This document shows positions 22,139 through 42,714 of a stretch of 64,000 nt of DNA, piece by piece. Numbering within the stretch: the first letter of the stretch is position 1; each line of letters starts with the position of its first letter. The stretch lies in the NCBI GenBank assembly GCA_030407315.1, contig JALQPE010002679.1:39132-103131 (forward strand), in the 5' to 3' direction. The notes below the pieces were generated by a model. The model worked only from the letters and a program-made list of their open reading frames with translations, ran no database searches and was not told the DNA's origin. A program made the position numbers and the translations under genes. The DNA comes from Asparagopsis taxiformis. Taxonomy: Eukaryota > Rhodophyta > Florideophyceae > Bonnemaisoniales > Bonnemaisoniaceae.

Positions 22139-23350
22139 CACTACTGTGTCTGAAATCGGGCCTGGGGCAGTACTGTACGGCAATAAAATTTACTGCCTGA
22201 GACAGTAAAATTTAGTACTGTAAAAATATAAATTAATGCCCTACTTGCCGGCAGTACAGTGCACTGCCCGGAGGCAGTGGCCATGTGCTGCCGACGGCAG
22301 TAGAAAGTACTGCCTGGATGTATGACGTGAGGCAGTGGTAGGAGGCAGTGATAGTTGCTGGATTTAGATTGTCTTTCTGGCAGTGATTTGTGCTACATTG
22401 GCCTGTAAAATAAAGTAGTATATTGTGCTGACTTGTGCAGCACGGGGAGGGAGTAAAATATGCTGTCCAGGAATATGGCCCACGGCAGTACTATTTGGTG
22501 GCGTGGGATGCACCGTGTGGCAGTAGAAGCTAGTGTTTCCGGCAGCGTGCTGTGCTGGCTGCGGGCCCGAATGACGGCAGCACATTTTGCTATATTTAGG
22601 TAGTGCCCCGATGTACTGTATGATACTGCCTGCAAGTCATGGCAGAGGCAGAGAAATGTACTGTATTCTATTATTGGACAAAGCAGTAATTTCTGCTGCT
22701 GTGTGGTGCTGCTTTTTTTGTACTTACAGGTAGTGAAAAGTCTATGTTCTGGCAGTAGAGTAATGCAGTGGAATATGATGACAGCAGACATGCTTCGAGG
22801 CTGTGTATTCTACTGCCTGTGGAAGCGAGTGGGGACAGTAAATTATGATGTCTGACGAAATGTGTGAAAGCAATGAAATGAGGTGCTGATAGTCTCTGGG
22901 AAAAGCTGCCTGATAGTACTGCTTTATGATACGAAAAGTGCTACCGTACCGTGCTACTTGCCGTTGTGGAAAGTGCTGCCGTGCTCTACTACTTGCGTAT
23001 GTGTAAATCACTGCCACGCTGTACTGCTCCAGGATATGTGAATTGCTGCCCCACAGCACTACAAAAAGTAGTAGATTTTGATGTATTATAGAGCTGTCTA
23101 GATCAGCGTAAAGTACTGTCTGATAGTGATGTCCTCGGCAGGGGCATAGGACAGTACCACTTACTGCCTGTGCCAGTGCAGTGTACTACCTGGAAGTGCT
23201 ACCTGTGGCAGTACATTTCACTACCTGGAACTAGTGCTTGAGACAGTACAATTTACTGCCGGGAAGTCTATACTGAACCTGTAAATTGTAGTGCCTGGCG
23301 GTACTGACTCGGTCAGAACGGGAAAGTAGTAGAATATGATGCCTAGGGTA
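22139..23350 (+). repeat. CACTA terminus and subterminal repeats
   Basis: Aligns with the start of the CACTA end at 32854 (gggcct, then cagta, then ctgagacagtaaaa, then attaatgcc). About 1.2 kb is dense in short motifs such as ggcagta, actgcc and gacagta in both orientations. Such subterminal repeats bind the DNA-binding protein in known CACTA elements. Confidence 0.7.
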
Positions 23351-24744
23351 ATACTTTCTAGTGCCTACAATTGATGTTCAGGATGATAGAATGAGGTGGA
23401 AATGCCATTCCAGCCGCATGTTCAGGCATCTGGCTACGAAATGTCGGGCAGAATGGAGTATCTCTCTCGGTGGTCTTCATAGAAGTGTATAGGGATAACC
23501 AAGTGTGATCTAAAAGGATGTCAGAATTTTTATGTAGCAAGGACAACGATTCCTGAAGGATTGTTTCAGTTCTATCATTAGACTAGACTACTCATAAAAT
23601 CGAACTATCGTATCTAAAATCTTACTATCTCTACAACCAGGATTATTGTGCAAGCAAATCGAATTCCTTGCTGTTTCAAAACTACATGTGATGTTCAGAC
23701 AGGAGGGAAATAAACACCATTACAAATGATTTGCAACAGGTTAGCAATCGGATATAGAAAAGTATTGTAAAGGATGAGAAGAACATAAGTATGAATGGAA
23801 TGAACAAACTTACCATCATTGAACTATTTTTGCGTGCAACGGTATTGGTTGTAGGTTGGAATGACGAAAACTGATCCTATTCTAGTCTATTGATTTGAAA
23901 GGTTTCTGACATATGTATTGCTTAAGCAATACATATGCCAGCAACCATTCAAATCAGTAGACTAGAATAGGATCAGTGAAGAACGATACTCATGGTTAGT
24001 GCACTGTCTTCCATGGAAAACATGTGGAAAGAAATGAGAGAGGGGAAAGATACCTACTCGACAACGTACCAGCCTTACCTGTCATCTTCATGATAACCGG
24101 ATGATGAAATGGTCCTATGCGTCGCGCATCAACAGCCTTAAATAGACAGCTCATCCACTCATAATGACCTCGTCGTAACTGGAAGGCAGATGATTTGGCA
24201 GCGGATGATCTGTCAAATTTTCTGGACGTGATAAATTAGCAGAAATAGAAATCATGCCCCTAGGCAATGTCAAACCAACCTAAAAGTCTTGGTATTGATG
24301 TTTAGCTGCACACTGAAGGAGAAACTTCGAATAAATGCTGTAAATTAGAGTAGTAGACAATCCGAAAGAGAATTGCAACCGTGTTCTCATCTATATATAG
24401 TTTCTTACCATAAAAAGATTACTATTGAGGCCTATTATACCATGTACTGAAGCTAAATTGTAAATGATTCGTGTATTTCATTCAGAAAAGGAAGCAGGAA
24501 TCGTTGGAGGCATTAAAGCTCGCTGAAGAACCCAACATGGGAAATCAAGTCACCTGTTCCTTGAGTTAGGTAGGACACTAGTCAGTGTGAAGTTTTCGAT
24601 AAGATGTAACGGTAAGAAAATATAGGTACCATAAACTATTACAGTGGCCTGGTTAAAAAGAGACGGATACCATCTTATTAGTTGCCTACTAGTTGACACT
24701 AATCTACAATTTGTGCAAGGTTCTCTCGAATCCAAAGAGAAGAG
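23351..24744. other. Non-coding part of the CACTA element
   Basis: AT-rich, without a convincing ORF. It holds the hairpin at 23871-23976. A frame open upstream of the transposase ATG (from about 24640) has no start codon and may be leader or exon sequence. Confidence 0.45.
23871..23976. repeat. 106 bp near-perfect hairpin
   Basis: Left arm ctgatcctattctagtcta pairs with tagactagaataggatcag at the right end. The arms continue with few mismatches to the self-complementary centre gcttaagc (23920-23927). A transcript would fold into a single long stem, like a microRNA precursor or foldback element. Confidence 0.8.
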
Positions 24745-27700
24745 ATGAAACGAACAGCTGTTCGGAAGAAAGGTACACCTCGAAGAACCCGGAGAAGGTT
24801 TGAATCATTGTCAATCCCATACGAAAGTGGGACAAGGCACGAAAATGGGGAAACCCCGCTAGTTTCGAACGAAACATTCGAGGTTCACGCCGATATACCG
24901 GACGAAAACGTCGGAAAAGCATCTGCTGAAGACGAGAATATTTCTAGTGGCAATGGAGAAGAGCACATTGGATTTTTTGAGGCTGGAAAAGTTACCAGAG
25001 AAGAAGAAACGATAGGCTCTGAGGAAAGCTCGGCCGAGAGCTGTGATGACCACGACGGAGAAGAGGCAGCGGAAGATGACCGCGGACTTGTGGATAAACT
25101 GCTGACCTGGCCAGTATTCTCTGCAATAATATTGCTTAGTGGAACGCTACGGATGAAACGCAAGGACTATGAAGGTATGCGTGAGATGTCTAATTTCAAG
25201 CGGGACATTTCGGATCAAGCACCTAGCGACTCGTACATGAGGAAAGTCATTTTACCGTTCATTCTGAAAACATGTTTCCCACAAAGCATGGATACAACGT
25301 GTGAAATAGATGTAACAAAAAGCGGCTCTAGGCTTGGAAAGATGTCTCCAGGACTGTCTAGTAGCCGTAGAGCTCATTGTACTACATCGGTACGAGTCGT
25401 GCTACCGAGCACATGGGCGGAAAGGGATATACAGACCGGACCCATTCTGGACTGCATAAAGTCTAGTAAAAGGGACCATAGTGATGAAAGGGAAGATGAA
25501 GCATATCAAATTGCTTCAGAAAGTATTGAAAACTCTTTCATTGTCAAATGCCGTTCAGCTGTTCTGAATGACCCATTCCATCGCATTTCGGTAAGTGCAT
25601 CAGATCATGAAGGTCACAAGATGCACAGAAAGGTATACGCCCGACATGGAGACGAGTTGAGGATCATATGTATGCCGACGACAAATCAAGAGGCCCTGGT
25701 GGCTAAGCTGGGAGGAGCCAGAACGAAACAGGGAAAGAACATCGAAACTGGAAAGAATTCTAGGAGCAGAAGAAGTTTTGCAGCAAGGAGTGACTGGAGA
25801 ATTGAAGCTATCATCATTGCAAGTTATCTTGCAACCGGAGAAGAACAAAAAGAATCAAATATGGAAGATGTGATAGGCCCGCAAATCGATGCAATGGAAG
25901 AAACTGAGAAAAGAAATGCGAGGCGTGTCGTCTCCACCACAACGCTCGACGGAGAACATTGCAACAATGATATTCGGGCAGGTGACGCTATCACTCTGTT
26001 TCGGCCAAAAAGTAAGTATGATGGGAGCACATTTGAAGAGTTACTACTCGTGAACAGACATCTGAAAAAGGGACGCTCTGAACATGTGACTTTTCTCATT
26101 TGCTCCACAAGGGGAGAAACTGGGCAGCTACATCGCGAACAAATTCGGGTGAAAGACGTCCAGCTCATAGGAGCTCCAGACAAGAGGTCTAGATGGCACC
26201 CCGGCTCTAAACGTATGGATGCCTGCAGTGAGGGGAATCTTTCAGATGGCAGGAAATATATCGTATACCGATTTCTGCTATATGCTGATGACTTCCAGCC
26301 GTTCACAAGCCGGAAAGGAAGTTTTGGTGGCTGCTATATGCTTCCATTAGGCATACAGCCAAGCAAGAGAGCAAGCTTCCACGCAGTCCGCGTTCTTGGA
26401 TTCGTTCCCCCTGGAGTTTCAACAAATGTTGTAATTGAGAGAGTTGTACCCGACATTGTGAAGGGAAGTACAGACGGTTTTCCAGCGAAAGATGCAAATG
26501 GAGAAGACGTGGTCATATTCCTGGATCCTGTTGGATTTATCGGAGATTACCCAGCTGTTTCGCATACTCTGGATGTCCGTGGACACACCAGTAATACACC
26601 ATGCCATAGCTGCATTTTCGAAAAGCAAGATATGAGCAGCAGTGGAGGTTCACGAAATGCATACACAGCATTGCTAAACAGTCAGATGAGTACGCATGCC
26701 CGAGTAATGCACCGAAACAAGCTTTTGAGGGAAGTCGCATCGCAAGATCAGCTCAAAGTTCTTGGACTAAGCCTAGATCCGATTGAGAATAAGGCACTCC
26801 ATAATTTGAGTGAATCCCTTAATCGTGTGCGGAGAGGAGTTCCTACAAACGAAGAAGGAGTTCCAGTTTTTCCTTGTCAATTCGATCCATATCGCTCTGC
26901 TGTAGTTGCCCCAGACCATCTGCTCTCCGGACTGGCTCAAGATGTGATGAATGCGACAATCACTGCAGCAACACCTGTAATTCGAAATGTTGCGGAAACA
27001 GTTCTACTGAATACCCTCCGAATGTTCTGTTTGAGTAGTCAGAGTCAGGTATTCGGGCAGAACTACCTATTATCGATGAACATGAGCGATATATTCGCTG
27101 TTCTCGTTGTAGCTCCCCAAGCATTTTATTCGGCATTTCGTATCGTCATCGGGAACTCTTGGGACGGGTATGAAAAACTTGAACGTATTCTTCGTTTGCT
27201 GAAAAAGTTTCAAATGGTCATTCGATTCATCCCAACATGGTGGATAGATGGACTTGAGTCAACCAGGAGGTTCGAGGCCGAGAATGGCGGACGCCATGAC
27301 CACATTCTAGCTCTTGTTTCAGACTGTGTGAAAGAACTGCATGAGGCATGTAAGAAGGATCCTATTGCAATGAAACATCTGGACAAACCGAACTTGCATC
27401 GGTTGATAGAATTTTGCGTACATACATTACCAGCTTTTGGAGCTGCGAAACATGTGGAAGAGCTTTTATTCGAGAGAATGCACCAGCCTCTTAAAAGAGG
27501 GGTTCGAAACTCGAACCATAAGAATGAACATCTGTCATCAATGGAGCTCATCATGGCCGATGACTGGCTCGCACGAATAGCCATCACGCTGGGTGCGGTA
27601 GGTCACAATACAAAACAATGGACGTCTGCCGATTGCAGACGCGTGTATTTTGCACTAGGAAAAGGAATTTCGGAGAGTCCACATGCGACAGAAGAGGCAG

Positions 27701-28437
27701 CAAAAAAATGCTTCTTAAGTCCTGTATTCCATCTCATATCAGAGAGGAGCAGTACTATGGTGAGCACCCACTGTCCAATCACGCGGTGGCGAGGGGAATC
27801 TGTTGAAGACGCGAAAAATGTTCCGGCAGAAGAAACCGTCATGATGGCAAGGATACGTAAAGCTTCTGAAACTTTTCTCAGAACCAGACAGGTAAACGGG
27901 TCTCAACATGGTGAACGACTATGGTGGCTCACTGCTGCACAAAGAGTGCGCACTAGTCATGAGGGATCTGAGAGCGAATCGAGGTTAGGGCGTGCTGAAC
28001 CTGGAAGCATCATTCAAGCAGTGTGCAAAGATGGATGGTATGATGCTGGTATAGTAGTACCCGCCCATAGCAGGACGAGCATGGAGGAATTCACATGTTC
28101 TAGACGTGTCCTTTTCGTCACATTGTCCTTTTTTATTGTGGTAGGGCAAGGAGAGGAGAAGAAGGCAAAGAAATGGAAGCAGAAAACTCCATATGCTGTC
28201 TGCATTCCCTTGACATGCACTGGAGACGGTATGTACCGGAAAGGTGGGAATGATACTATAGTTCACGTTGAAATGAACGACGGGGTCCGAGAATTTTTGC
28301 ACGTACATAACTGCGAGTCAGGAGTTTGTTCATACGATAGACAAAGTGGCATTGTAGAGCACAATAGTGATATTCTTTCTGGTGGTGAAGTGAGCGTCTT
28401 AACTAGAGAAGATGGATACCCACCACGTTCAGCATAG
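24745..28437 (+). CDS. Tnp2-like CACTA/EnSpm transposase
   Basis: An intact 1230-residue ORF. After a basic start (KRTAVRKKGTPRRTRRR) and an acidic stretch, residues ~510-625 match the layout of the Tnp2 transposase core. YADDFQPF (513-520) corresponds to the family's DGFNPF-type motif. GDYPAV (600-605) corresponds to NDFPAY. The zinc-binding pair CHSC (620-623) follows at the usual distance. Candidate acidic residues for the rest of the active site lie in VEELLFERMHQPLKR (904-918). The protein would act in the nucleus, cutting at CACTA ends. Those ends and subterminal repeats lie around it at 16428, 22139, 32854 and 47284. The ATG is the first in a frame open from about 24640. The stop is TAG. 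Class is assigned from these motifs together with the CACTA termini. Detailed family is not certain. Confidence 0.8.
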   Translation: MKRTAVRKKGTPRRTRRRFESLSIPYESGTRHENGETPLVSNETFEVHADIPDENVGKASAEDENISSGNGEEHIGFFEAGKVTREEETIGSEESSAESCDDHDGEEAAEDDRGLVDKLLTWPVFSAIILLSGTLRMKRKDYEGMREMSNFKRDISDQAPSDSYMRKVILPFILKTCFPQSMDTTCEIDVTKSGSRLGKMSPGLSSSRRAHCTTSVRVVLPSTWAERDIQTGPILDCIKSSKRDHSDEREDEAYQIASESIENSFIVKCRSAVLNDPFHRISVSASDHEGHKMHRKVYARHGDELRIICMPTTNQEALVAKLGGARTKQGKNIETGKNSRSRRSFAARSDWRIEAIIIASYLATGEEQKESNMEDVIGPQIDAMEETEKRNARRVVSTTTLDGEHCNNDIRAGDAITLFRPKSKYDGSTFEELLLVNRHLKKGRSEHVTFLICSTRGETGQLHREQIRVKDVQLIGAPDKRSRWHPGSKRMDACSEGNLSDGRKYIVYRFLLYADDFQPFTSRKGSFGGCYMLPLGIQPSKRASFHAVRVLGFVPPGVSTNVVIERVVPDIVKGSTDGFPAKDANGEDVVIFLDPVGFIGDYPAVSHTLDVRGHTSNTPCHSCIFEKQDMSSSGGSRNAYTALLNSQMSTHARVMHRNKLLREVASQDQLKVLGLSLDPIENKALHNLSESLNRVRRGVPTNEEGVPVFPCQFDPYRSAVVAPDHLLSGLAQDVMNATITAATPVIRNVAETVLLNTLRMFCLSSQSQVFGQNYLLSMNMSDIFAVLVVAPQAFYSAFRIVIGNSWDGYEKLERILRLLKKFQMVIRFIPTWWIDGLESTRRFEAENGGRHDHILALVSDCVKELHEACKKDPIAMKHLDKPNLHRLIEFCVHTLPAFGAAKHVEELLFERMHQPLKRGVRNSNHKNEHLSSMELIMADDWLARIAITLGAVGHNTKQWTSADCRRVYFALGKGISESPHATEEAAKKCFLSPVFHLISERSSTMVSTHCPITRWRGESVEDAKNVPAEETVMMARIRKASETFLRTRQVNGSQHGERLWWLTAAQRVRTSHEGSESESRLGRAEPGSIIQAVCKDGWYDAGIVVPAHSRTSMEEFTCSRRVLFVTLSFFIVVGQGEEKKAKKWKQKTPYAVCIPLTCTGDGMYRKGGNDTIVHVEMNDGVREFLHVHNCESGVCSYDRQSGIVEHNSDILSGGEVSVLTREDGYPPRSA

Positions 28438-29039
28438 AGTGTTCCAGCACAGTGTTTAATACATCAGTAAACTTTCGTAATTCATTTAGCAGCAGTCCTG
28501 ATCAAGTCTTCCAACAAATGCTATACAAAATTTGTACATGTCGTTTGAAGAATAGAGTGGGCTTTTGTTCCATGCGCACAAATAAAGTGTGTTTTGCGAA
28601 GAGCGTACGCACTTACGTACGTATGACGCCATTGGTACTAGAGATGGAGCCGCGAGTTGCAGGACTCATAGTTCCACAAAGTTGAGTTCGCATATTCCAA
28701 TGGGGAGCCGGCACCTGGCCAATGAAGTGGAAAATAATACCCGGTATAGTTTTTTGGCTCCAGTGACAAGTGGAGTATTGTGACTGATGGCAATGGGATG
28801 GTTTTGGGAACGAAGGAATTGTGTGTGGGAAGTCCTTCGTCGAGGAATGACAGATGGCCGAATACAATTGGAGCGCGTGGAAGGTTAATCAATAACTGAT
28901 ATTTCACGTTTAGACGTGTAGGGAGATCGTTTCCCGCCAAATACCACCTTGAAAGAGGAATATCTCTTGATCGTGTAGTCGGAGAGAAAAGGTATCTTTG
29001 TTATCCTGAACGGCTTCTCTACGCGTCCAAATCTTTGCA
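28438..29039. other. Spacer between the two CACTA ORFs
   Basis: About 600 bp with no convincing ORF. The two genes run in the same direction, so the spacer should hold the first gene's 3' end and the second gene's promoter. No specific signal is recognised beyond AATAAA at 28580-28585. Confidence 0.45.
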
Positions 29040-32000
29040 ATGGCCGGAAGCGACACTGAGCGCGCTGCGGAACCAAAGGATACCGTCGAAAGCGTTGCAG
29101 AGAGACTTGCAACGACGGTAGGCGGTGATAAAACACCCTCCGGAGTTTCTGCTGATGGAGGGGCTCCGTCTGCAGCGGGAAGGGAGACGGCAGATAGCCA
29201 GACACCCATTCAGGGAGCAGACGCTGCCATGATAGAGGCAGCAAAAACCCTTGGTGATATATCACCATCTGGGAAAAACACTCTACGCTTTCCATCTACT
29301 CCTGGGACGGTGAAATCGAAAAACAGGGAGAGGTCTAACGTCCGTGAAGGCGAGGGGAGTCCTGCTGGCATGGAAGCATCAGAAGAGTCTGTGATGGGGA
29401 TTGACATCAACATTGTCGAATGCAGGACTGAACCTAAAATGATCAATCCGCTAGATGTTGCCAAACCGGAATCAACTTCTCGTCTTGTGCAGGAGGCCAG
29501 AGTGCGCGATCTGGTCAGCAAAATATCTACCGAGGGGTTTCTGGAAACTGGCACCCGAATGACCATCTGTGAAACAATGGGGTCAGACGGACGGAAGAAA
29601 CTGCAGTGCATTGATGGAGGTCATCGTATCAGCGCTTTGCAGTCGATTGTGGAAAACAAACCGACAGTTGCTGATCGATGGAGACTGAGGAGCATTAGCG
29701 TTGACTTCATCCGACCACCTGGAACCCGTGAAATGTTTCATCCTCTTGAAGTGATGCGAATATCGCAGAAGCTGAACGAAAAGACTCATGACGTGATAGA
29801 AGTTTCTATTGCTGACCACGTCTGTACGGTCATGAAGTTCATGATGATGAAGGGCTTGATGAAGGCGAAGGTAAATGTGTGCACAAAAGTTGTAGTCGAG
29901 AACAAGGTCATTCCAGGTTGTCAGGAAGGAATCATGATGAAGTACGTTTCGATTGCGCAGGGCTTCGGAGACGTAAATAACCCGGCGTTCGAACATTGGT
30001 CAGCTATCCCAAGTCGATTTGCAACTGAAACTAGTCCGCCAGACTCGAAGAATATGCAGGGATGCACTGTGGACGTCCTATTCGCTTCTGCGTTTCGAAA
30101 AGCTTCGGTGGACACCAAACTTTTCATTCTAGAGCTCACTGCAATGTGGACGATGTGGAAACGTAGGAAAGGAGATGGTGGTATAAGTCTAAAGACATGC
30201 GCGCAAAAGTGGTGCTACAGCATGTGTGAAATATATGACATACTTGAGAAAGCTGTACGGAAAGAAAACTCCTGGCATTCCTCACCTCATCCATGTTTCA
30301 GGAAGTTACATGAAGTACCGGAGCCAGGTGGACGAACACTAAAAACCATACGATATCGCATTTTGACTGTCCTCAAAGATTTCTATCCTTCCGACGCACC
30401 AACTGGGAGAGGTATACGTGCAGCATTGACGCGGTCTATGATGAAAGAAATCCGTTATATGGTTTTCAACGGCCCAATTCTATCGGATGACTCTCTCGAC
30501 CATTCCGTCGCGCCTGAAATAGGTGTGCAGGAAAGGCGAACTAGGCGAAAATCCTTGGAAGGGAATACTGCACCTCGACCACGACAAGAATCCGCATCGT
30601 ATGGTGATACTTCAAATGCTTCCATTCATCGCTCGGACGTGGTACAGAGTCCAAATGTACTTACCCAACAGCAGACACAGGGCAGTCTGGAAATATCGGA
30701 TCGTGTTAACGCTGAGGTCGGTGCTACAACACAGGTTGGTGAAGAGGCGACAGGGAAAGCGGCAGATTCCGAAAGCGCAAAGCAGGTTACAACGGACCGC
30801 GCAGTGCCTACTGCGCCTACCGAGAACAATTCTTCGAAACCTGGAGATTGTGAAGTTGGGGATGTGTTGCAGAAGAACGTAGGAACTCAAGAGCTTGAAC
30901 CAACTGGTGCAAATCGAGGAAGGAATGACCACGGTGATGAAAATGACCTGCAACAACCACCTAGCCCAGTGGCAGCCGGAAGTGCCACGCTCAGACCAGA
31001 GCAGGGTGGAAAGTCGCCGGCGAATATGTCAGTTGGTCATCCAAGAACTGGTCGAGATGGTGAAGGAGGTCCTGAATCTAGGAAGAGCGATGGGTCTGGA
31101 ACGAAAGATGTCCGCGAAGAATGTCCCGAAAATTCTTCTGGAAGGACAACGGAGGACCCGATAAAAGGTGTACGAAATCAGGGTGATGGCACTGGAGACG
31201 CTATGTTATCTACAGCGGATGTCGGCCTACCTGTTTTACCTGAGCTGGAGGACACGGAAACACCTGTTACCAGTTCTACGCTTAGGAAGTTGATGACAGC
31301 CAAGCACAGCAGTGGTTTCGTGCCCTTAAAGGCAAAGCCGAGGAATACGGAGACGCCGCCAATGATTCTACGATCCAAACGGAAATTGGTGGATGTCACC
31401 CCTCAAGAGGTTATTGACCTGGTGGGAGAGGATACCAGCAGGCCGCGGCAGAAGAAGAAGCAAAAGATGCGTGAAGACGCAAATTTGCAATCCGGCAAAG
31501 ACGCTGCAGTCCACGCGGTTCAAGGAGGTCAGTATTCGGACAGGCAACAAAATGATGTCCCTGACAAAGATGTGGAGGAAGGTATAGAAGCGAAACTGCC
31601 TGTTATCATTCATCCCGACAGTCGAATGAAATACTATGTGAATGGGAAACTGGTCGATACGCTTCGAGCCGAGGTCGCTGAAGCAGCAGCGAGTGCCTAT
31701 TCGGCACAAAATTTTTCCGCTGAGTTTCTCTCGAGGGCTTATTTCCGAGAGAAACGAAATGAAATAGACTTGGTTGGGTTTACAATTCTGGACGGAATAT
31801 TCAAGTCTTCTACTACTGCAGATGCGATCCACGAACTGCTCCTTCATTTTTCTGCGTTGTTTGAGGAACGTCTCGAGGATGCCAAGAAGAACTCTGAATC
31901 CGGTGACACCCGCAGAGATCCGGACTGGACACCGTGGTGCATGGCTATGATGGATGGGAAAAACTCTGATGAAGAAGGTGAGAAGGGCAGAGGAATCTTT

Positions 32001-32564
32001 ATAACAAAGCGGAAGAGCTTATGTGATGACCTCGAGGATAACAATAATAATCTCTATCGGAAGAAGATGATTGTTGAGCTCGGTCTAGGTATTTGTGCGG
32101 AAGGTTTGGAATTGAGGACTAGTGGGAAGGACCCGATGGCCTTCCCCAGCACTGGAACTACTTTAGTGCTGACTGGAGAGCGGACTAAACCTCGTGCTGG
32201 ACATACAGACTATGAAGTGGGAATCGATGAAGTTAACAGTCCCCCTTCTCCGCCATCCTACTTCATGATGTCAAGCGGCGCAGATGGATTCGGCCTCGTG
32301 CTTGCACCCTACAGTCATGTCTGTTTATCCCATCCCAACAGAGAGTTATACAGAGTTCCAATGAAGAGGTGTGAAGTACCACCATATTCTGTTCTTGTCT
32401 GCCGAGGGTATGTTTATCACCACGAGGAAGGCTTTGAGAGCGATAAGGGTCTTCAATACAAGTTCCCGATCCGATCTCACATATTCCTCAAAACTGAGCA
32501 GCATCAAAGTGAAGAAGGAGAATATGTCGTTGGACATTGGGAGGGCAATTCGAAATTGAAGTGA
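29040..32564 (+). CDS. ParB-like core plus 2OG-Fe(II) dioxygenase-like protein, CACTA companion ORF
   Basis: An intact 1174-residue ORF ending in tandem TGA TGA. Residues ~140-240 look like a ParB/sulfiredoxin-fold core: RVRDLVSKISTEGF (153-166) leads to DGGHRISAL (192-200), the place of the ParB nucleotide-binding GxxR-type motif. A helical region follows. Residues ~490-860 are low-complexity and acidic, with a SUMO-interaction-like VIDLV (791-795) and a basic RPRQKKKQKM (801-810) that may be a nuclear signal. The C-terminus has the order expected of a 2-oxoglutarate/Fe(II) dioxygenase: HTD (1055-1057), a distal His in YHHEEGF (1127 or 1128) and Arg in PIRSHIF (1145). Two decayed paralogues (35420-37575, 48132-49122) keep the same core segments. 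DNA- or chromatin-directed oxidation is inferred, and the substrate is unknown. Confidence 0.75.
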   Translation: MAGSDTERAAEPKDTVESVAERLATTVGGDKTPSGVSADGGAPSAAGRETADSQTPIQGADAAMIEAAKTLGDISPSGKNTLRFPSTPGTVKSKNRERSNVREGEGSPAGMEASEESVMGIDINIVECRTEPKMINPLDVAKPESTSRLVQEARVRDLVSKISTEGFLETGTRMTICETMGSDGRKKLQCIDGGHRISALQSIVENKPTVADRWRLRSISVDFIRPPGTREMFHPLEVMRISQKLNEKTHDVIEVSIADHVCTVMKFMMMKGLMKAKVNVCTKVVVENKVIPGCQEGIMMKYVSIAQGFGDVNNPAFEHWSAIPSRFATETSPPDSKNMQGCTVDVLFASAFRKASVDTKLFILELTAMWTMWKRRKGDGGISLKTCAQKWCYSMCEIYDILEKAVRKENSWHSSPHPCFRKLHEVPEPGGRTLKTIRYRILTVLKDFYPSDAPTGRGIRAALTRSMMKEIRYMVFNGPILSDDSLDHSVAPEIGVQERRTRRKSLEGNTAPRPRQESASYGDTSNASIHRSDVVQSPNVLTQQQTQGSLEISDRVNAEVGATTQVGEEATGKAADSESAKQVTTDRAVPTAPTENNSSKPGDCEVGDVLQKNVGTQELEPTGANRGRNDHGDENDLQQPPSPVAAGSATLRPEQGGKSPANMSVGHPRTGRDGEGGPESRKSDGSGTKDVREECPENSSGRTTEDPIKGVRNQGDGTGDAMLSTADVGLPVLPELEDTETPVTSSTLRKLMTAKHSSGFVPLKAKPRNTETPPMILRSKRKLVDVTPQEVIDLVGEDTSRPRQKKKQKMREDANLQSGKDAAVHAVQGGQYSDRQQNDVPDKDVEEGIEAKLPVIIHPDSRMKYYVNGKLVDTLRAEVAEAAASAYSAQNFSAEFLSRAYFREKRNEIDLVGFTILDGIFKSSTTADAIHELLLHFSALFEERLEDAKKNSESGDTRRDPDWTPWCMAMMDGKNSDEEGEKGRGIFITKRKSLCDDLEDNNNNLYRKKMIVELGLGICAEGLELRTSGKDPMAFPSTGTTLVLTGERTKPRAGHTDYEVGIDEVNSPPSPPSYFMMSSGADGFGLVLAPYSHVCLSHPNRELYRVPMKRCEVPPYSVLVCRGYVYHHEEGFESDKGLQYKFPIRSHIFLKTEQHQSEEGEYVVGHWEGNSKLK

Positions 32565-32853
32565 TGAAGGGCATCTGTCCAGCCGTGTTGAAGCCTTAGT
32601 TGGGTATGAATCCGTAGAGTAATAAACACAATTCCAATAGAACATGATAAAAGAGATACTGCATGGATTCTTTATATAGTCAGATAAATTTCACAAATGT
32701 AACAAACACCACATGCAGAAAGCTATTCTCCACAGAAAGCTCTACCTACAGGAGCTGCAAATTCTAAACCTCTTCAGTAGATGCAAGAAACGATAGCAGA
32801 TAGTAAAACCTGGTATTATATTACATCGTTCACTATCCCCGGTAAAATTTTCA

Positions 32854-33580
32854 CACTACGGTGTTGAAAAGGGGGCCTCAGACAGTATTGCGAGACAGTG
32901 ATTTTTACTGTCTGAGACAGTAAAAATCACTATGCGGCAAATGAAAATTAATGCCACACTTGGAGACAGTGATTTGCACTGTCTGGCAGACAGTACGGAA
33001 CACTGTCTGCAGACAGTAAAAAACACTGTCTCACAGTACTGTCTGAGGCAGTGAATGGAGACAGTAAAAATTAATGATTTATTCAATAGTTGGATATGAT
33101 GTAATTTACTGTACTGGGCAGTGTTGGCGGATAGTGTTTTGTATTGGCCAAGGCAACATGGCCGGATAGTGAAATACGCTGCCTGGGACAATAGATGGAA
33201 CCAACACGGTGCACTGTCCTGGGCAGTACCTGGAGACAGTGATTTTCACTGTCCTGGGCAGTACCTGGAGACAGTGATTTTCACTGTCCTGGGCAGTACC
33301 TGTAGACAGTACTTTGTGCTGCCCTGGGCAGTACCTGTAGACAGTATTTCGTGCTGCCCTGGGCAGCACCTGTAGACAGTACTTTGTGCTGCCCTGGGCA
33401 GCACCTGTAGACAGTACTTTGTGCTGCCCTGGGCAGCACCTGGAGATAGTACTTTGTGCTGTCCTGGGCAGCACCTGGAGACAGTATTTCGTGCTGCCCT
33501 GGGCAGCACCTGGAGACAGTAAAAGTAGTGTCCTGATATAGTAAAATTCGGTGTCTGGGAGTGGTGGATGAGATGGAGCG
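32854..33580 (+). repeat. CACTA transposon terminus with subterminal repeats
   Basis: Starts CACTACGGTGTTGAAAAG, nearly identical to the fragment at 39290. It is followed by many cagtg and gacagta motifs in both orientations and then by the 35 bp tandem array. The orientation is that of a left end, so it belongs to sequence on its right rather than to the ORF pair on its left. The flanking triplet is tca. No matching right end with the same triplet was found. Confidence 0.65.
33221..33535 (+). repeat. 35 bp tandem array, nine units
   Basis: Units starting gggcagtacctg or gggcagcacctg begin at 33221, 33256, 33291, 33326, 33361, 33396, 33431, 33466 and 33501, an exact 35 bp period. Each unit contains gacagt followed by an inverted actgtc or ctgccc-type partner. 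It is an amplified form of the CACTA subterminal motif. Confidence 0.9.
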
Positions 33581-35419
33581 TCACGCTGTCGTGGGCATCT
33601 TTCTGGGGTAGAGGAAGGCAGTTCTAGCGCTATGAGGATGGGGCATGGACGGTATTCATATGGGAATGGACAGAATAGTACGGCTAGGAATTTTTATTTC
33701 GTAGTGACTATGAGCTAGCGAGAGGTATACGCGGTAGGATAGGTAGCAATCTAAGAGGGTGCGATATGGGAAGCTTCACTCTGGATTTGTTTATTTGCGC
33801 AGGCTACATTGAGAATAAACAATCCCTATGTTAAAAATGCTACTACAACTAACACTATTCCGACGAGTAAAACTAAAACTACTAGAAAAGTCTAGAAATC
33901 TATCAACTGATTGAGCTGCATGAATAAGCTAGGAAATGAAGAGAAGAAGAAAAAATGATGTATAGAAAGGAAACAAGTTAGTGACGTTGAATTGGAGAGG
34001 GAAATTGATGGTGATTAGGAGACTAACGTACCTTAACAAATACCATTGCATCCCAAATTGAGATATGTACTCACAGGCAGAAAAGAAAATTAGTGGAGAA
34101 GTGGTAAGAGAGAAAGATAAATGAAAGTAGAAGTGGAACACTCACCGACTGGAAACCTGAGAAAGAGAAAACGAATAGAAAACTGGGTTAGTGGCGTGAG
34201 TTGTGGAAACGTACCATCATGGTTCATATCCGTCGGAGACAAAGCAACAACTTTGGCCTTGGAAGCCGTATTGATGATCTAAAACTTACGCTTTGGAAGC
34301 AGTTTAGATGATCTATACGGCTTCCACGGCCAGGGTTGTTGCTTTGTTTCCGACGGATATGAAGATGGAAACAGGGATTTCCAGAATCTTTCGTTTAAGT
34401 AGTACTCTACGGGCGGAAATGACGTGTAGGAGAACAATAGAGGGATGAGTTTGAAACGGAGCAGTGCGATGGGAGGCCCAGAAAAACGATACCTAGGCTG
34501 CGAATTACGCTTGGAAGCACATGATCTGGCAGAGGAGGCGCACATTATCGTATCTTCTACCGCCTTTTATTGTCTAGAATGACGTCATCACTATAGAAAT
34601 ATAGGAAAAACACTAGCATATGGGGCCTACAGGACAGGCGGAGGTGAAGAGTAAGAAAAATGGCGCACTTTCCTGGACGAGGAGTCCGCGCTTCCAGTGA
34701 TGATGTGGATGGTATATATCGATAACGTCATTGTATGCTCCGAGTACACTTGGCAGGCAGTCAAAGCGGGCCACGTGGATGGTGGCGGTTAGGAAACAGC
34801 AGTGTCGAAGAATTTTTATAATTTTCATGTTTCAAGCGAGCAGTGAGTCTGCATTGCAATATAAAAATGTATCCTAATTTAAGATATCACACCGAGTACG
34901 ATTCAACGAGACATCGTGTTTTCACCTTGTGAATAGGGCCGAGAATATGGTAGAGTATACGAGTAGGAACTACGTGCATGAGAAAATCAGATTCAGTATT
35001 AGTGCTTAGAGCATCACTGCGTAACAAACGGAAGTGGATACGTCTTGGCCAGGATGGTGTTTAGGGAATGCGATACAAGATAGCAAAACGATATTGAGTA
35101 GGTCGAGCCCGGATGAAATAGCAATCATTGTGCATAAAGTAATGAGCATAGGAAAAATCATTGTGGTGAAACAGTTCATTGGATCGAATGAAAGCCAGGA
35201 AAGGTTTCTTAATGGTTGAATTTAGTGGCGGAGAAATATAATTCTGCACTATAGCGGAGAAGTAGCGGAAAAGAGTAAATCTCCTTCAGCAAGCGAGACA
35301 TGCATCAATATTGCCCAGTATAGTTCGTCTGAAGTGCAAGTTGAACCTCGCAAAGTGAATATCAGAGGTCGTTGGCTAGTGGTTGAAGAAGTCTGCAACG
35401 ATGGAGCAATTCTTGAAAA
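33581..35419. other. Non-coding sequence, no recognisable gene
   Basis: AT-rich sequence holding the hairpin at 34223-34363. No supported gene. The last ~130 bp (from about 35290) is open in one frame and may be upstream coding sequence of the decayed paralogue that follows. Confidence 0.45.
34223..34363. repeat. 141 bp near-perfect hairpin
   Basis: ttcatatccgtcgga at the left pairs with tccgacggatatgaa at the right. The arms continue inward through caaagcaacaac and ggaagccgta, with a few mismatches, to a short loop. Like the hairpin at 23871 it would form one long stem, but the two sequences are unrelated. Confidence 0.8.
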
Positions 35420-37575
35420 CGGATTTGGCTGCAGAAAACTATTCCGAACAGGCCAGAGTTCGTGCAGTTCTCTTCGACGGAGAATCTGGCTGGGTGTACG
35501 GTGAAATTTTTGTTCAACGGATCGTTTAGGGGTGCTCCGGACGTCCAAAATTGTGTCAACCTCGAGATGACGGCGTACTACACTTGTAGCCGTTGGTGGG
35601 CCGGGCTGAAACCGAACTCGGTTGGTACCATTGGGCAGGAATGGATTGCTGGTTTGTTGGAAATCTTCGGGTACGTGAAGGAGGTGGCCGAGTATTGGAA
35701 CGTTTCGGATGTGTTGAGGATGCTGGATGGCTCCATTCCCAGCGTGGGTGACCCGAGCAAGAGCTTCGACATTCACTCACGCGTTGTCGAAGTTTTTGCG
35801 CTGATGGTGCCCAAGAAGGGGTTCTGAGCGGACTTACATCCCAAGGAAGGCCCTCCCAATGGCTCCAAGTTTGAGAACATCTTTCCCAATCGGAAGTCTA
35901 TGTTTTGAAAGGACGCCAGGAAAATGCTCCTGCGCGTAACTGGCTACCGCGACATGTAAATGCGGAAACAATTTTACGTGGTGGACCCACACATCCCACA
36001 TGCTGCGCTCCCAGTCACATGTGGTCATGATTCCGCCAACCCTTCCCCTTCCATTTCCCTGACCATCCCTTCATCCTCCATTCCTTTGCCTTTGAAGAAT
36101 CCAATTTAGGTAGTACCACCTCAATTAGATTCTTCCAGCTATTCCGAGGCTGCCTCTGTTTCTGCCACTACCCCTGTCGTGTCTGCATCGTCCGGAGTGG
36201 AAACTTCTGGGAAAGTGATGCCCAAAAGGAGTACCTGCCTGAAAGAGAGTCGTTCCGGTCGTGGTGGAACAGCGACGGCGGGTGGTGCGAGCCCTGTTCA
36301 GGTCGTCGAGCTGGAGAGCGCACCCAAGGATGCGGGTAAAAGCTCCATCCTTGGGAAGCGCAACTGGGAAACCGCTTCTGCGACGCCCGAGCCCTCTACC
36401 AAATTTGGTACTTTTAAAAGAGGAAGCTCAGTGAGACTTCATCAAAGTCGTCGTCAAAGAAATCCAAGTCGGCTTCCAGAGGACGTTCTCGGGAGCCGAT
36501 TCTCCAGTTCGACGACGCCCATGAAAATCCTATTCCCGACAGTATCGTCGATGAGAATGTGGCCGCCGTTCTCCCCAGCGCAATTGCGTCTGGTAGCCCG
36601 ATGAAGTACTACATGGAAATTACGACGGTAGAGACGGTGCGGGCGGAAATAAAGGCGGCAGCATTCCTGGCAGCTGCATCGCCAGGTGCTGAGGACTCGG
36701 TGGTGGAATAGTACTTTGCGGTGAAGCGGCGTTGCTGGACAACATGGGGGTGGTTGTTGTGGAAGGCCTCTTGCAGTCGTCCACGGCTGGTAGCGCGACG
36801 CATGACCTCTTCAGTCACTTTTCTCGACAGTTCCAGCTGGTTGAGGAGGTTGAAAAGCCACAGAAACCCTCCCAGCAGTCTGATTCTGATTATGAAGACA
36901 GGAAACCACAGGACGAGCCCCCAGATTTCGCCAAGCCCGGTTTTGATACTTCGCCGTGGCATTTCATCCACAACGTGGGTGCTGCGAAGGACCGCATAGA
37001 TGGTGGTCGTGGGCGACTCCCCCTGCCGCGGTGTGAATTGTGCGACAAGCTGGAGGAGGGGAATTTGGATATGTACAGGAACAAGTTGGTGGCAGAGCTT
37101 GCTCTTGGTGTTTGTGCGGATTTCTTGAAGTTGGGAATGGAGGGTGAGGATCCTGTCTTTTTCCCGAAGACAGGATTACGGCTGCTTCTTAAAACAGATG
37201 GGGCTGCGGACCAGGATGGGCACACGGACTTCTGAGTATCCCAATTTTGAGGAGTCGGACCTACCCAATCCCCATCCTATTTCATGATGTCGAGCGGATC
37301 CGATGGGTTCTTTATAGTAGCTGCACCTTATAGTCATGTATGCCTGGTCCATACGGACGCCGACATGTGGAAGGTTCCCGTTAACCACTTTTATGTGCCA
37401 CCCTATTCCGTCTTAGTTGATCGCGGTGACCTTTACCATTACGGGGTCGGCTTCAGGTGAGGAGATCTTCCTGTGGGAGCAGAATTTAGTCTATGGTCTG
37501 CCCACGCGCGGCCACATCTACTTGAAGACTGAGAAGGACGTCCTCACGGACCACATCCACACCGTCGAATATTAA
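35420..37575 (+). pseudogene. Decayed paralogue of the ParB-like/dioxygenase ORF
   Basis: Fragments align in order with the 29040-32564 product across frameshifts and stops. GCTVKFLFNGSFR (~35490) matches GCTVDVLFASAFR. MKYYMEITTVETVRAEIKAA (~36602) matches MKYYVNGKLVDTLRAEVAEA. ELALGVCADFLKLGMEGEDP (~37096) matches ELGLGICAEGLELRTSGKDP. A dioxygenase-like GHTDF (~37218) is followed by SYFMMSSGSDGF, PPYSVLV and YHYGVGF. The N-terminal DGGHR region is not seen. A SUMO-interaction-like VVELE (~36303) occupies a place similar to VIDLV in the intact protein. Breaks occur near 35520, 36420, 36708, 37233 and 37457. Confidence 0.75.
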
Positions 37576-37899
37576 AAGTATGACAGGAGCAATAGATAGC
37601 ATACGAGAAGTATTAAAACCTATGCTATTGTTCCCTGCTATGAAGTTCTGTCTTTCTCATCTCAACATTATTCGCTTAGCCCACCTTTCTATTTTCATCT
37701 ATACATCTGACCTTCATGTCATAGTTTAGTGCTACTAAGCCTATTGATTGCTACATTTTTGTATTAGTCTACAACTTTACATGATTTCACTAGCTAGACC
37801 GTAGGGGGGACTAGTTTTAGACCTTGACAACCCGTGAGGTTCGACTATAAGAGACGTTGCTGAGATAACACATGACACAGAATGCTCCAGGAAGCCACT

Positions 37900-38553
37900 C
37901 ACAGCCGTACAAACGTTCTGCTGAGCCATGTTCCTGACTTCCCAATTCCTTGCTCACCCTTCCCTAGGTGGGAGGGGGACGGAACTCTCAGCCCCTTACA
38001 GCGGAAGCCGTTTACCGGGGATTCTTACAGCAAAGTCATCGTTACGATGACTTTGCTGTAAGAAAGCGTTTCCATTACAGTGGCCAAGAATTTTTTCACC
38101 GGGTAAAAAAATCATGGCAGCTGTAATGATTTATTTTCTTACAGCAAAGTCATCGTAACGATGACTTTGCTGTAAGGAAACGTTTCCATTGCAGTGGCCA
38201 AAGAAATTTTACCGGGTAAAAAATCAGCAAGAATTTTTACCGGGTGAAAAATCGTGGCTGCTGTAATGATTTATTTTCTTACAGCAAAGTCATCGTTACG
38301 ATGACTTTGCTGTAAGAAAGCGTTTCAATTACAGTGGCCAAGAATTTTTTTACCGGGTAAAAAATCATGGCTGCTGTAATGATTTATTTTCTTACAGCAA
38401 AGTCATCGTAACGATGACTTTGCTGTAAGCATCCCTGGTAAATTGCTTCCGCTGTAAGCGGCAGGGACTTCCGTCCTTTTCCGACCTAGGGAAGGGTGAG
38501 GAAGGAATTATGAAGTCAGGAAACAGGGTATAGGAATGGTATGGACGGCTGTA
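37900..38553. repeat. Palindrome cluster A, four copies of a 37 bp palindrome
   Basis: The core is TTACAGCAAAGTCATCG, a few central bases, then its reverse complement, at 38025-38061, 38139-38175, 38279-38315 and 38392-38428. The unpaired centre base alternates T, A, T, A, so successive copies are inverted. Spacers contain a second inverted motif around taccgggtaaaa. The block is flanked by longer inverted arms (cttacagcggaag with tttacc) and beyond these by ccttccctaggt and cctagggaaggg, making a foldback about 650 bp long. Confidence 0.85.
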
Positions 38554-39289
38554 GGCGGCATTAGGTAACACATTGTGTTGTTTACACCCGGTTTGAGCTG
38601 GGTGTTGTGTCTAGTATGGTTGGAGGAGTGTACGAAATTTCTACCACGTGGTCGGAAATGGTTCAATTTTCTCACGACAGAGATTCTGACTTTCGAAATT
38701 CAAACTCGTTAAAGTGGGCTGGAGTTGGTGTGAACACCTCCAGGACCTCTGGGAAGGATCTGGTAACACATGTCCTGTGACTGCACGCGGTTATCCTCTC
38801 TGAAATCAACCATAGATTATCGGAGGGCAAAATCTACTCTTGGTGCCTTGTGGCACATTGACAATACAAAACCGTCTGTTTCCAGTTTTTATATACTTTA
38901 CTCTCGAGTAGATAGGATTTCAGCTGTCCAAGTAAAGAATGGGCCATATAAATGTTTCATTTCAACACAAGCATTGTGCAATTCAACCTCTTCCAGGTCC
39001 AAAAACTTGTCCAGAGTACACTTCCAGGCCATCGCCTGGGAGCGTACTCTGGACAATTTTTTGGACTAAGTGCACTTTCAAGTGCATGCACTTGGAGGCA
39101 TCCAGTCCAAATCTACGTCGTTCCGACAAAGTTGAATTTTGGCCATGGCCGAAATTCATCATATCTGCAGTTGTGAGAATCTGATGACCAAAAATCGATG
39201 CATTCTGCCAGCCCTAATGCGCAAGCCAGAAGCTTTACGGACAGATAAAACACCTTTCTGTAATCCCCAGAGCCACTCCAGCCCTTATA

Positions 39290-39352
39290 CACTACGGTGT
39301 TGAAAAGAGGGCCTCAGACAGTACGGTGAGACAGTGATTTTTACTGCCTCAC
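39290..39352 (+). repeat. CACTA terminus fragment
   Basis: About 60 bp starting CACTACGGTGTTGAAAAG, nearly identical to the terminus at 32854, then unrelated sequence. It is a truncated transposon end. Confidence 0.7.
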
Positions 39353-39593
39353 TGTACAATGATCTTCAGGAAGTAGGATATTCTCTAAGCCTAGCACGGG
39401 AGAGAAAGATGGAAGCGTAGGCATGCAGAAGTATAGAGGCAATAGTATGTGTAGACTATGGCAGTGGTAGAAAAGTATTTCATGCACGAAAAGGACTGGT
39501 AGAGTGACACTAGAGAAGTGATGCTTAGCAGGAAGGGATGTGGAGATGATGAAGGAGGACAACAGACATGAGATCGAGGGTTGAGACCAACGG

Positions 39594-39690
39594 CTTACAG
39601 ACGGAGCAGTTTACCAGGGATGTTTACAGCAAAGTCATCGTTACGATGACTTTGCTGTAAGCATCCCTGGTAAACTGCCTCAGCTGTAAG
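39594..39690. repeat. Palindrome cluster B, single copy
   Basis: One 37 bp core (39624-39660, centre T) inside inverted arms cttacag...cagtttaccagggatg and catccctggtaaactgcc...ctgtaag. The whole 97 bp is nearly self-complementary. It is the minimal form of the element seen in clusters A, C and D. Confidence 0.85.
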
Positions 39691-40379
39691 CGGCTGGGAG
39701 CTTGGTCCCTCCCTCACCTTGGGAAGGGTGAGCAAGGAATTGTGAAGCCGTAAAACATGGCAGAGGGATGGTTTGGACGGCTGTTAGCGGTGTTGGGGAG
39801 CACTCTGCGTCGTGCTAACCCAGTCTGGGCTGGGTGCCCTGCCTGGTACGGCGGGAGGAGTGCACAAAATTTCAAACACAATTTCCTCAAGAGTGAAATT
39901 CTGATTGTCGAAACTCAACCTCCCTAAAATGAACTAGAGCTGGCATGAGCACCTCCAGGACGTCTGGAAAGGTACTGACAGCACATTTTCGGAGCATTGG
40001 CGCAGCTGTTCTCTCTGAGATCAAGCATAGAGTATCCGTGGCCAGATTCTATTCCTGGTGCCGTGTGGCACAGTGACCACACCAAATCGCCCTTTTTAGC
40101 AGACTATAGATTTGAGTTACTAGGAATCTAGCTGCCTTCAATACCAACATAGTTGGTAAGTAGGCTAGCCTAGGATTGTAGGAAAATCAGGAAGGATGGG
40201 AGGGTAGGTATGCAGCAACATGAAGGGGATAGTATGAGTAGATTATGGCGGTGGTAGAGAAGGATTGCACTCACTGAAGGGTCGGCTGGAGTGACACCGG
40301 AGTCGACATAGAAGGGAGGTTGGGATAGGCTGGGATGAAGGAAGACAAGAGACATGAGAGAGAGGGTGAAGCCAGACCG

Positions 40380-40728
40380 CTTACAGCTGAGGCAGTTTAC
40401 CGCGGGTGCTGACAGCAAAGTCATCGTTACGATGACTTTGCTGTAAGAAAAGAAAACATTACAGCCGGCACGATTTTTTACCCGGTAAAAATTCTTCGCC
40501 TACTGTAATGTTTCCTTTTCTTACAGCAAAGTCATCGTTACGATGACTTTGCTGTAAGAAAACGTTTCATTACAGTAGCCACGATTTTTTACCCGGTAAA
40601 AAAATTCTTGGTGATTTTTTCACCCGGTAAAATCCTTCGCCCACTGTAATGTTTTCTTTTCTTACAGCAAAGTCATCGTAACGATGACTTTGCTGTAAGC
40701 ATCCCTGGTAAACTGCCTCAGCTGTAAG
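40380..40728. repeat. Palindrome cluster C, three copies
   Basis: Cores at 40410-40446 (one mismatch, centre T), 40521-40557 (T) and 40662-40698 (A), with spacers carrying tttacccggtaaaa. The outer inverted arms match those of cluster B. Confidence 0.85.
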
Positions 40729-41170
40729 CGTCTGGTACCTTGGTCCCTCTCTCACTTTGGGAAGGGTGAGATAGGAATTTTGAAGTCGGGAACATTGTGG
40801 AAGGATGGTTTCGACGGCTTCGGGCGGCTTTGAAGAGCAATCTGTGTCTTGTTCACCCGGGCTGAACTACCTAAAAAGTTCAGTATTGGGAGAGCAGCAC
40901 GGTAAATTTCGACCACCATTTTCTCACGACAGAGATTCTGGCGGTCGAAATTCAAACTCGTTAAAATGGACTAGAGTTGGTGTGAACACCTCCAGGACCT
41001 CTGGAAAGGTACTACCTGCACATTTTCCGAGGCTACAAGAAGCCGGTCTCTCCAATATCAAGCATAGATTATCGGTGCGCAAAATCTACTCCTGGTGCTG
41101 TGTAGCACATTGACTATACAAAACCGTCCGTTTTCCGTTATAATAAACTATACTCTCAAGTAGGTAGGAA

Positions 41171-41609
41171 TCTAGATATTCACCTTACATCGATGGTTAT
41201 GAAGTAGGTTAGCCTAGGACTGAAGGACAGAAGGTAAAGGATAGGATGGTAGGCATGGGGTAAAATGAAGGTGGTGGTATGAGTAGAATACGGAAGTGGT
41301 AGACAGGTATTTAATGCACAGGAGGGGCGTGTGAAGTGACACCAGAGGCGCGGTGCGTCACAGGAAGGAAGACTGGAATGATGAAGGAGAACTAGAGGCA
41401 TGAGAGATAGGTTGTTGAGGCATGCTTCTAGCTCTATTATATAACTACATTGCTCCTCTATAGGCTACGCAATCCATTCCAGCAGTTCTAGTTAAAAATG
41501 GACTATATGAATGTTTCATTTCAATATCAGCATTGTGCAGTTGAGCCTCTTCAAGGTCCGAAAACTTGTCCAGAGTACGCTTCCAGGCCACTTGAAGGCA
41601 TCCAGAACA
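41171..41609. other. Repeat-derived spacer, no gene
   Basis: Contains purine-rich sequence also seen near 39350-39560 and 40170-40370 (ggctagcctagga and gatgaaggag blocks). No coding potential was recognised. Confidence 0.45.
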
Positions 41610-42330: not shown

Positions 42331-42373
42331 CTCCTTCTTCTTCCCGAGTGAGAAACATCAGTCCCTCTCATAT

Positions 42374-42714
42374 GCTTACAGAGAAGTTGGTTTACCATGG
42401 TTTCTTACAGCAAAGTCATCGTTACGATGACTTTGCTGTAATGTTTTGTTTTCTTACAGCAAAGTCATCTTAACGATGACTTTGCTGTAATGTTTTGTTT
42501 TCTTACAGCAAAGTCATCGTTACGATGACTTTGCTGTAAGCAACCGGGGTAAACTGCCTTTGCTGTAAGAAAACTGAATAGCAGTTCCGACAGCTTGTCC
42601 TGAGAAAGCAAATCCGCCTTAACGATGACTTTGCTGTAAGAAAACAGAGTACTTACAGTTCTGACAGCTTGTCCTGAGAAAGCAAATCCGCCTTAACGAT
42701 GACTTTGCTGTAAG
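42374..42714. repeat. Palindrome cluster D, three copies and two half copies
   Basis: Full cores lie at 42405-42441 (centre T), 42454-42490 (one arm base changed) and 42503-42539 (T). They are separated by only 12 bp of tgttttgttttc. Two half copies (ttaacgatgactttgctgtaa) at about 42619 and 42693 each follow a gacagcttgtcctgagaaagc block, a partly duplicated unit of ~74 bp. Confidence 0.85.

Follow-up and report, generated by a model that had tools for sequence, protein, structure and literature searches.

Why should a transposase gene of a red alga be accompanied by a large gene that combines features of a bacterial partition protein with those of an oxygenase? The question is raised by a stretch of 64,000 nucleotides from Asparagopsis taxiformis (contig JALQPE010002679.1, positions 39,132 to 103,131; hereafter the window), in which an earlier note, made from the letters alone, had described two long same-strand open reading frames (ORFs) 602 bp apart, assigning the first to the CACTA transposases by its Tnp2-type motifs and the second to a ParB-like core joined to a dioxygenase dependent on Fe(II) and 2-oxoglutarate (2OG). 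Both frames are present with the motifs described, DDFQPF, GDYPAV and CHSC in the translation of ORF1 (24745..28437, + strand, 1230 aa) and IDGGHR, EVIDLV, a basic stretch and HTD...YHH...R in that of ORF2 (29040..32564, + strand, 1174 aa), and both have many near-identical copies in the genome. The ORF2 product comprises a ParB-like core, a long middle and a putative Fe/2OG dioxygenase-like C-terminus, and has a paralogue, ORF3. ORF1 and ORF2 both lie within a CACTA/EnSpm-type element, here called element A, with its 5' end at window position 22139; the element seems to supply its own means of controlling chromatin. The reading developed below, held tentatively and about evenly poised, takes element A for a CACTA/EnSpm transposon of giant size and recent activity, whose cassette of chromatin-modifying genes rests on ParB-like modules for targeting or clamping. 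The general idea of the earlier note, that the element carries a DNA- or chromatin-modifying enzyme, draws strong evidence from a gene outside the window, ORF4; its dioxygenase part stands unproven.

Element A, its transposase and its copies

Element A begins with CACTACTGTGTCTGA (22139..22162, + strand) where a retroelement-like ORF ends, and this start is identical in two other loci, L039 and L040, despite their differing flanks. Within the window the element is split by a second CACTA element at 32854-47284, resumes at 47287..49080 (+ strand) with the start of ORF3, matching loci L041 and L042 at 96-97%, and is cut at 49080 by another repeat. A complete copy, the sole one with both ends seen, occupies C2634:70129-93869 (23,741 bp, about 23.7 kb) and has CACTAC ends with AC on both sides, this AC/AC pair in one copy being a target-site duplication in the 2-3 bp range. 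Its 3' end reverse-complements to CACTACTGAGTTTGA and matches the 5' end as an inverted repeat at 13 of 15 bases; further 3' ends are known from C1778 (two) and C1931 (one), and of the four in all, one on C1778 is off by one further base. Short subterminal repeats are found at both ends, CAGTA/TACTG in both orientations occurring 28 times in the 1.3 kb of the 5' zone (22139..23438), against a mean of 2.4 and a maximum of 8 in 200 mononucleotide shuffles, and 16 times in the 0.6 kb of the 3' zone, against a shuffle mean of 1.1; there are four occurrences inside ORF1 and four inside ORF2. With its inverted CACTA-type termini, subterminal repeats and duplication, element A is a transposon of the CACTA/EnSpm type, and a retroelement origin was rejected, the Ty3/gypsy-type genes of the window (54.4-60.5 kb) being separate from it.

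ORF1 is, as judged from its sequence, a divergent Tnp2-type transposase. It gives no Pfam-A match on a single-sequence scan and is absent from the 36 places returned by a genome-wide Transposase_21 search. A profile comparison by hhalign with four Transposase_21 proteins from the same genome returns a probability of 97.3 and an E-value of 1.9e-11 over 385 columns, with the DDFQPF, GDYPA and CxxC of ORF1 standing opposite DGFQPY, GDSPA and CxxC. This match, the termini and the 2-bp duplications bear out the CACTA/Tnp2 identity. Among metagenome proteins, 13 hits were obtained, 12 of them besides its own family, that share the motif columns; a Plavaka reading was rejected, being indicated by one of the 13 transposase relatives only, at an E-value of 0.15. 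The ORF1 alignment found no relatives in viral contigs.

Copies were sought by profile and sequence searches of the A. taxiformis genome (141.5 Mb in 3,156 contigs), the ORF1 and ORF2 counts being lower bounds drawn from the best-scored candidates, with the window's own copy included. Of the Rubisco structures compared, a 99-residue piece of the rbcL product of this genome scores best against those of red type (form ID), with 198 bits for 8bdb_A, 184 for 1bwv_A and 168 for 5mz2_A, green-type entries reaching about 100; this fits an alga of the red lineage, most likely a red alga. There are at least 38 ORF1 places, all full length at 98-100% identity and one with an in-frame stop, and at least 39 full-length ORF2 places at 98-100% identity, 38 of the 39 without an in-frame stop. 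ORF2 is a regular companion of the transposase, as previously proposed, lying 606-912 bp downstream of ORF1 at no fewer than 24 of the 38 ORF1 places. This pairing holds, and its count is a lower bound, because an ORF2 place on C142 for which no ORF1 was listed nevertheless carries one, locus L039 matching window 22139-29463 at 98.7%. The differing gaps between the two genes (about 606, 711 and 815 bp) are explained by a tandem unit of about 105 bp that precedes ORF2 (approximately window 28697-28791): the window copy has one such unit, whereas other copies have it repeated. The copies also point to recent expansion of the element A family, since 8 of 30 ORF2 copies compared over 3,522 bp are identical to the commonest bases, and 26 have at most three differences. 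The changes among these copies comprise 13 silent, 21 amino-acid and one stop (ratio 0.48), the copies being too young for a firm test of selection.

ORF3 is 32% identical to ORF2 along its length and has the same layout. It is not intact in the window, and an intact version was read at locus L046 on contig C107. Among 113 ORF3 places scored in the genome, the frame reaches 830 aa in 59, and when all 113 are compared with the ORF2 places, the C-terminal part of ORF3 is found 2.7-3.2 kb downstream of ORF2 at 28 of the 39. Next comes ORF4, which is convergent with ORF3 (tail to tail) within 8 kb at 69 of 82 ORF4 places, and the complete copy holds two further frames, ORF5 (C2634:89547-91043, + strand, 499 aa) and ORF6 (C2634:91657-93183, − strand, 509 aa), neither of which matched a known family, ORF6 having been scanned over the 448 aa contained in one locus.

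ORF4 and the candidate domains of ORF2 and ORF3

ORF4 (C2634:85420-88941, − strand, a frame of 1,174 aa) combines a ParB-like part, an N6_N4_Mtase domain and a SET domain. The methyltransferase scores 1.8e-14 (54.7 bits) against Pfam, over the cut-off, and contains DPPF, of the pattern DPP(F/Y/W); it also matches a phage methyltransferase PHROG family at 4.2e-24 and a CcrM-like NCBIfam model at 7.9e-8, the latter far below that model's own cut-off. The SET domain is matched over the full profile length at 5.4e-6 (27.2 bits against a cut-off of 22.4), and the ParB-family match is to phrog_1033 at 1.8e-5, ParB-like proteins of Leptospira phages being 28-34% identical with E-values from 9e-4 to 3e-2. 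The families to which these domains belong suggest that ORF4 methylates adenine (or N4-cytosine) and lysine. The 526-aa enzyme half, used as the query for counting, located the 82 places scored in the genome, at 99-100% identity and two with a stop, and found no relatives in viral contigs. The frame spans at least 1,000 aa at 69 of the 82 places and exactly 1,174 aa at 59.

Related domains abound elsewhere in the same genome. Among the best 150 of 2,605 first-look candidates for N6_N4_Mtase, 147 exceed 58 bits in several score classes, many in frames of about 1,186 aa, and several subfamilies are apart from ORF4; the genome thus carries an extreme load of adenine-type methyltransferase genes. 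The best 150 of 1,661 SET candidates include 140 that score 33-36 bits, many of these lying in frames of 1,080-1,154 aa. In another subfamily there are at least eight methyltransferase-SET pairs, SET following 402-403 nt after the methyltransferase, in the same frame in seven of eight, and the distance in ORF4 is about the same. Methyltransferase-SET proteins are therefore not unique to element A.

The ParB-like core of ORF2 (residues about 152-205, 29493..29654, + strand, with IDGGHR at 191-196) is less plain. A combined ORF2 and ORF3 profile, compared by hhalign with a profile of ORF4 and three phage ParB domains, aligns over 49 columns, IDGGHR among them, at an E-value of 7.5e-4 and a probability of 25.6%. 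In 150 column shuffles the real score was never equalled, though the best came close (28.75 against 29.88), a reversed profile scored 9.4, and among 11 windows along ORF2/3 only two, covering the IDGGHR region, exceeded 16. A direct MAFFT alignment of the ORF4 N-terminus with ORF2/3 misplaced the motif and was set aside for the profile-profile route. Neither the Pfam nor the PHROG hidden Markov model library yields a ParB match in ORF2/3, and the alignment of the ORF2 N-terminal region has no sequence match in the PDB. The earlier claim of a ParB-like core in ORF2 receives moderate support, in that no shuffle reaches the score and the best is close to it, and such a core is likely present in both ORF2 and ORF3.

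At the other end of the protein, an HxD...H metal triad with a distal arginine is present as HTD (residues 1055-1057), H1127 and R1145 (32202..32474, + strand), all invariant between ORF2 and ORF3; the pattern is a motif rather than a proof. An ORF2-like relative in the second CACTA element, described below, has HTD in its open piece, its H and R stretches matching only in interrupted frames. The C-terminal domain of ORF2/3 is on these grounds probably a metal-dependent oxygenase. Family searches gave little: ORF2 has no Pfam-A match on a single-sequence scan, the C-termini of ORF2/3 have no relatives in viral contigs or prokaryote genomes, and ORF3 likewise none in viral contigs. The weak ORF2/3 matches obtained are phrog_7379 at 0.011, outside the ParB-like and dioxygenase-like regions, an NCBIfam tRNA-methyltransferase model at 0.03 and chance-level Pfam rows. 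Structure prediction with fold search, which the earlier note had proposed as a check, was run on both terminal regions of ORF2 and spoke neither for nor against the two folds, the models being unusable (mean predicted local distance difference test, pLDDT, 34-37) because there are too few relatives; for the N-terminal region (two sequences) AlphaFold gave a mean of 37, and Foldseek found nothing in the PDB at E<=0.001.

The earlier note had further drawn an analogy with TET/JBP enzymes, which oxidise 5-methylcytosine (5mC), and this is weakened. ORF2, ORF3 and their C-termini have no Tet_JBP match in Pfam, so that membership of the family is unsupported, and a Tet_JBP search of the genome was empty, as it was in the controls. 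The C5 DNA methylase family (PF00145) has no candidate in the genome, while 10 of 14 control genomes, all prokaryotes, give matches; if this absence is real, 5mC is an unlikely substrate of ORF2/3, as no C5 enzyme has been found.

Possible functions of the cassette and rival explanations

From these parts we infer a chemistry, a set of targets and a logic of writing and erasing. ORF1 would move element A by recognising its terminal inverted repeats and by cut-and-paste with 2-bp target duplications, as expected from its superfamily. In ORF4 a ParB-like module would be joined with a SET domain and a DNA methyltransferase of the adenine type, and in ORF2 and ORF3 a similar module with a C-terminal domain that is probably a metal-dependent oxygenase. 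The ParB-like heads might load on the subterminal CAGTA repeats and so mark the element's own chromatin, where ORF4 would write DNA and histone methylation and ORF2/3, which may remove methylation-type marks, would reverse or tune the marks of ORF4. Such marks could keep the element's promoters expressible and coordinate the binding of transposase, functionally like TnpA of maize Spm and VANC of Arabidopsis. If this is true, a selfish element relies on enzymes that it encodes, rather than on those of its host, to control its epigenetic state, with a bacterial partition-protein module serving as the address label, and the alga has in its transposons a very high-copy supply of adenine-type methyltransferases and SET proteins. 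The fullest version, a complete self-targeted write-and-erase system for marks other than 5mC, in which ParB-like clamps or spreaders on the CAGTA repeats deliver the ORF4 writer and the ORF2/ORF3 erasers in a host without C5-cytosine methylation, is considered rather improbable.

Several observations weigh against a chromatin-modifying cassette. The ParB profile probability for ORF2/3 is low, at 25.6% over 49 columns, and against ORF4 alone it falls to 4.5% (E 0.0091); Pfam ParB_N has no match in ORF2, ORF3 or ORF4, and its one place in the genome is located on another contig. Nothing in Pfam, PHROG, NCBIfam or the PDB indicates a dioxygenase in ORF2/3, the AlphaFold model of the ORF2 C-terminal region (four sequences) is unusable at a mean pLDDT of 34, and Foldseek with this low-confidence model found nothing in the PDB at E<=0.001. 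Searches of 5.8 billion proteins with ORF2 and with the combined ORF2 and ORF3 profile recovered, among the candidates that were scored, only the element's own family. In ORF4, the SET region lacks by eye NHSC, the textbook SET motif, and the domain may be inactive. The window's ORF2 copy is the most diverged of the 30, with 21 differences from the commonest bases, 17 of its codon differences being amino-acid changes and 4 silent, and may be decaying. ORF3, finally, falls short of 830 aa in 54 of 113 places, is interrupted in both element A copies that were followed, C2634 and C142, and is interrupted in 20 and open in 8 of the 28 copies that follow ORF2. The corresponding figure for places not following ORF2 is 34 of 85, and because interruption is far commoner in ORF3 following ORF2, there may be another group of elements in which ORF3 is mostly open (e.g. 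C107). The interruption would fit ORF2 being the chief partner, broken copies being complemented in trans, or the genes being passive cargo; the counts therefore lowered the standing given to the cassette and raised that of passive cargo.

Of the other explanations, the one with a realistic though minority chance holds that ORF2 and ORF3 are TnpA-like DNA-binding accessory proteins, their likeness to ParB and to HxD...H...R being incidental or structural, so that only ORF4 modifies DNA or chromatin. TNPA, the classical second protein of CACTA elements, acts on the element's promoter (PMC1636069, in the part covered here), and ORF2/3 lack a meaningful family match; yet ORF2 and ORF3, only 32% identical, do not differ in the HTD, H and R columns, HTD recurs in the second CACTA element, and the ParB profile match is confined to one region of ORF2/3. 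It is unlikely that ORF4 instead acts as a self-methylating enzyme that protects or licenses the DNA of the element, for instance with newly inserted or excised copies shielded from host nuclease or marked for repair, and has no part in transcription. The phage type of its methyltransferase, the ParB-like head and the high copy number with near-identity would suit such a role, as would the self-methylation proposed for the DNA methyltransferases (DNMTs) of retrotransposons in the covered part of PMC5890265, whereas a SET domain fused in frame suggests nucleosomes as a target, and a second subfamily in the genome also has the fusion. More doubtful than any of these is a reading of the accessory genes as passive cargo that the transposon captured and that has no role in its life cycle. 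Giant algal elements often hold genes whose function is unknown, and some of these elements are non-autonomous, as stated in the main text of PMC12477816; the second CACTA element of the window, its ORF2-like gene interrupted, exists in many copies, and the ORF3 following ORF2 is mostly broken; against this stand the scarcity of stops in ORF2, the long ORF4 frames, the recurrent gene order and the layout of ORF2 and ORF3, kept despite their divergence.

Related systems and neighbouring elements

The core idea of ORF4, a ParB-methyltransferase cargo, and giant EnSpm elements of red algae are both already in print, as far as the covered text of the sources goes. Sola1-1_Ec32, a 21.5-kb Sola-1 element of Ectocarpus, encodes on its opposite strand a 1104-aa protein with ParB-like and N4/N6 DNA methyltransferase parts (PMC12477816), and resembles element A, whose ORF4 likewise lies on the opposite strand, joins ParB-like and N6/N4 methyltransferase parts and is of comparable length (about 1,100 aa), both elements being giant; the superfamily differs, Sola-1 there and EnSpm here. 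The main text of the same paper says that ParB-methyltransferase proteins occur in red algal transposons and cites Petroll et al. 2025 for red algal EnSpm elements of giant size that carry accessory genes (Bostrychia moritziana), which, as known through this citation, share with element A the EnSpm/CACTA type, the giant size, the red algal host and several accessory genes. The terms "SET domain" and "dioxygenase" have no occurrence in that main text, and neither the SET fusion nor the ParB/dioxygenase-like pair was found in the literature examined, whose scope excludes Petroll et al. 2025. A ParB-dioxygenase protein in a CACTA element, for which the earlier note knew of no precedent, was found nowhere in the literature searched, in which the two terms were never searched jointly and subscription journals were mostly outside.

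Accessory proteins of better-known elements offer functional parallels. In maize Spm/En, TnpA reactivates the methylated promoter, according to the covered portion of PMC1636069. Element A resembles Spm/En in being a CACTA element with an accessory protein. TnpA is a DNA-binding protein with no known enzyme domain, and VANDAL elements, which belong to another transposon superfamily, are not known to carry a methyltransferase. Sequence-specific control of the silencing of an element's own copies, through repeated noncoding motifs, is encoded by VANDAL in the form of VANC (PMC10398659, in part), and retrotransposons carrying C5 DNA methyltransferases are described from algae (PMC5890265, in part). 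The latter resemble element A as mobile elements of algae with a DNA methyltransferase, but are retrotransposons with a C5 enzyme, whereas element A is a DNA transposon with an adenine-type enzyme that has ParB-like and SET parts. A further parallel lies in fungi: KDZ transposons there are said to carry TET/JBP dioxygenases and would thus, like element A, be DNA transposons with a candidate DNA-oxidising enzyme, unlike it in that its host has no Tet_JBP match and no C5 methylase found.

The second CACTA element of the window, element B (32854..47284, 14.4 kb), has the ends CACTACGGTG...CACCGTAGTG and is nested in element A, flanked by a CA target-site duplication (32852..32853 on the left and 47285..47286 on the right). 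Its empty site is seen in all 29 other ORF2 loci cut out, from the 39 places, for this comparison, which read CAGTTCCTGAG across it. Element B contains an interrupted ORF2/ORF3-like gene, whose open piece (36693..37235, + strand, 180 aa) is 37% identical to the C-terminal region of ORF2, and it seems to spread with this broken companion, because the piece was scored in 150 places, the best of 2,441 first-look candidates, at 99-100% identity. A second B-type 5' terminus lies inside it at 39290, and a 35-bp tandem array of 8.8 copies (window 33214-33522) accompanies GACAGTA-type subterminal repeats. Elsewhere in the window, Ty3/gypsy-type genes for gag, reverse transcriptase, RNase H and integrase are found at 54426-60544 and at about 6230-7369, and in the latter (6.2-7.4 kb) a chromodomain follows the integrase piece.

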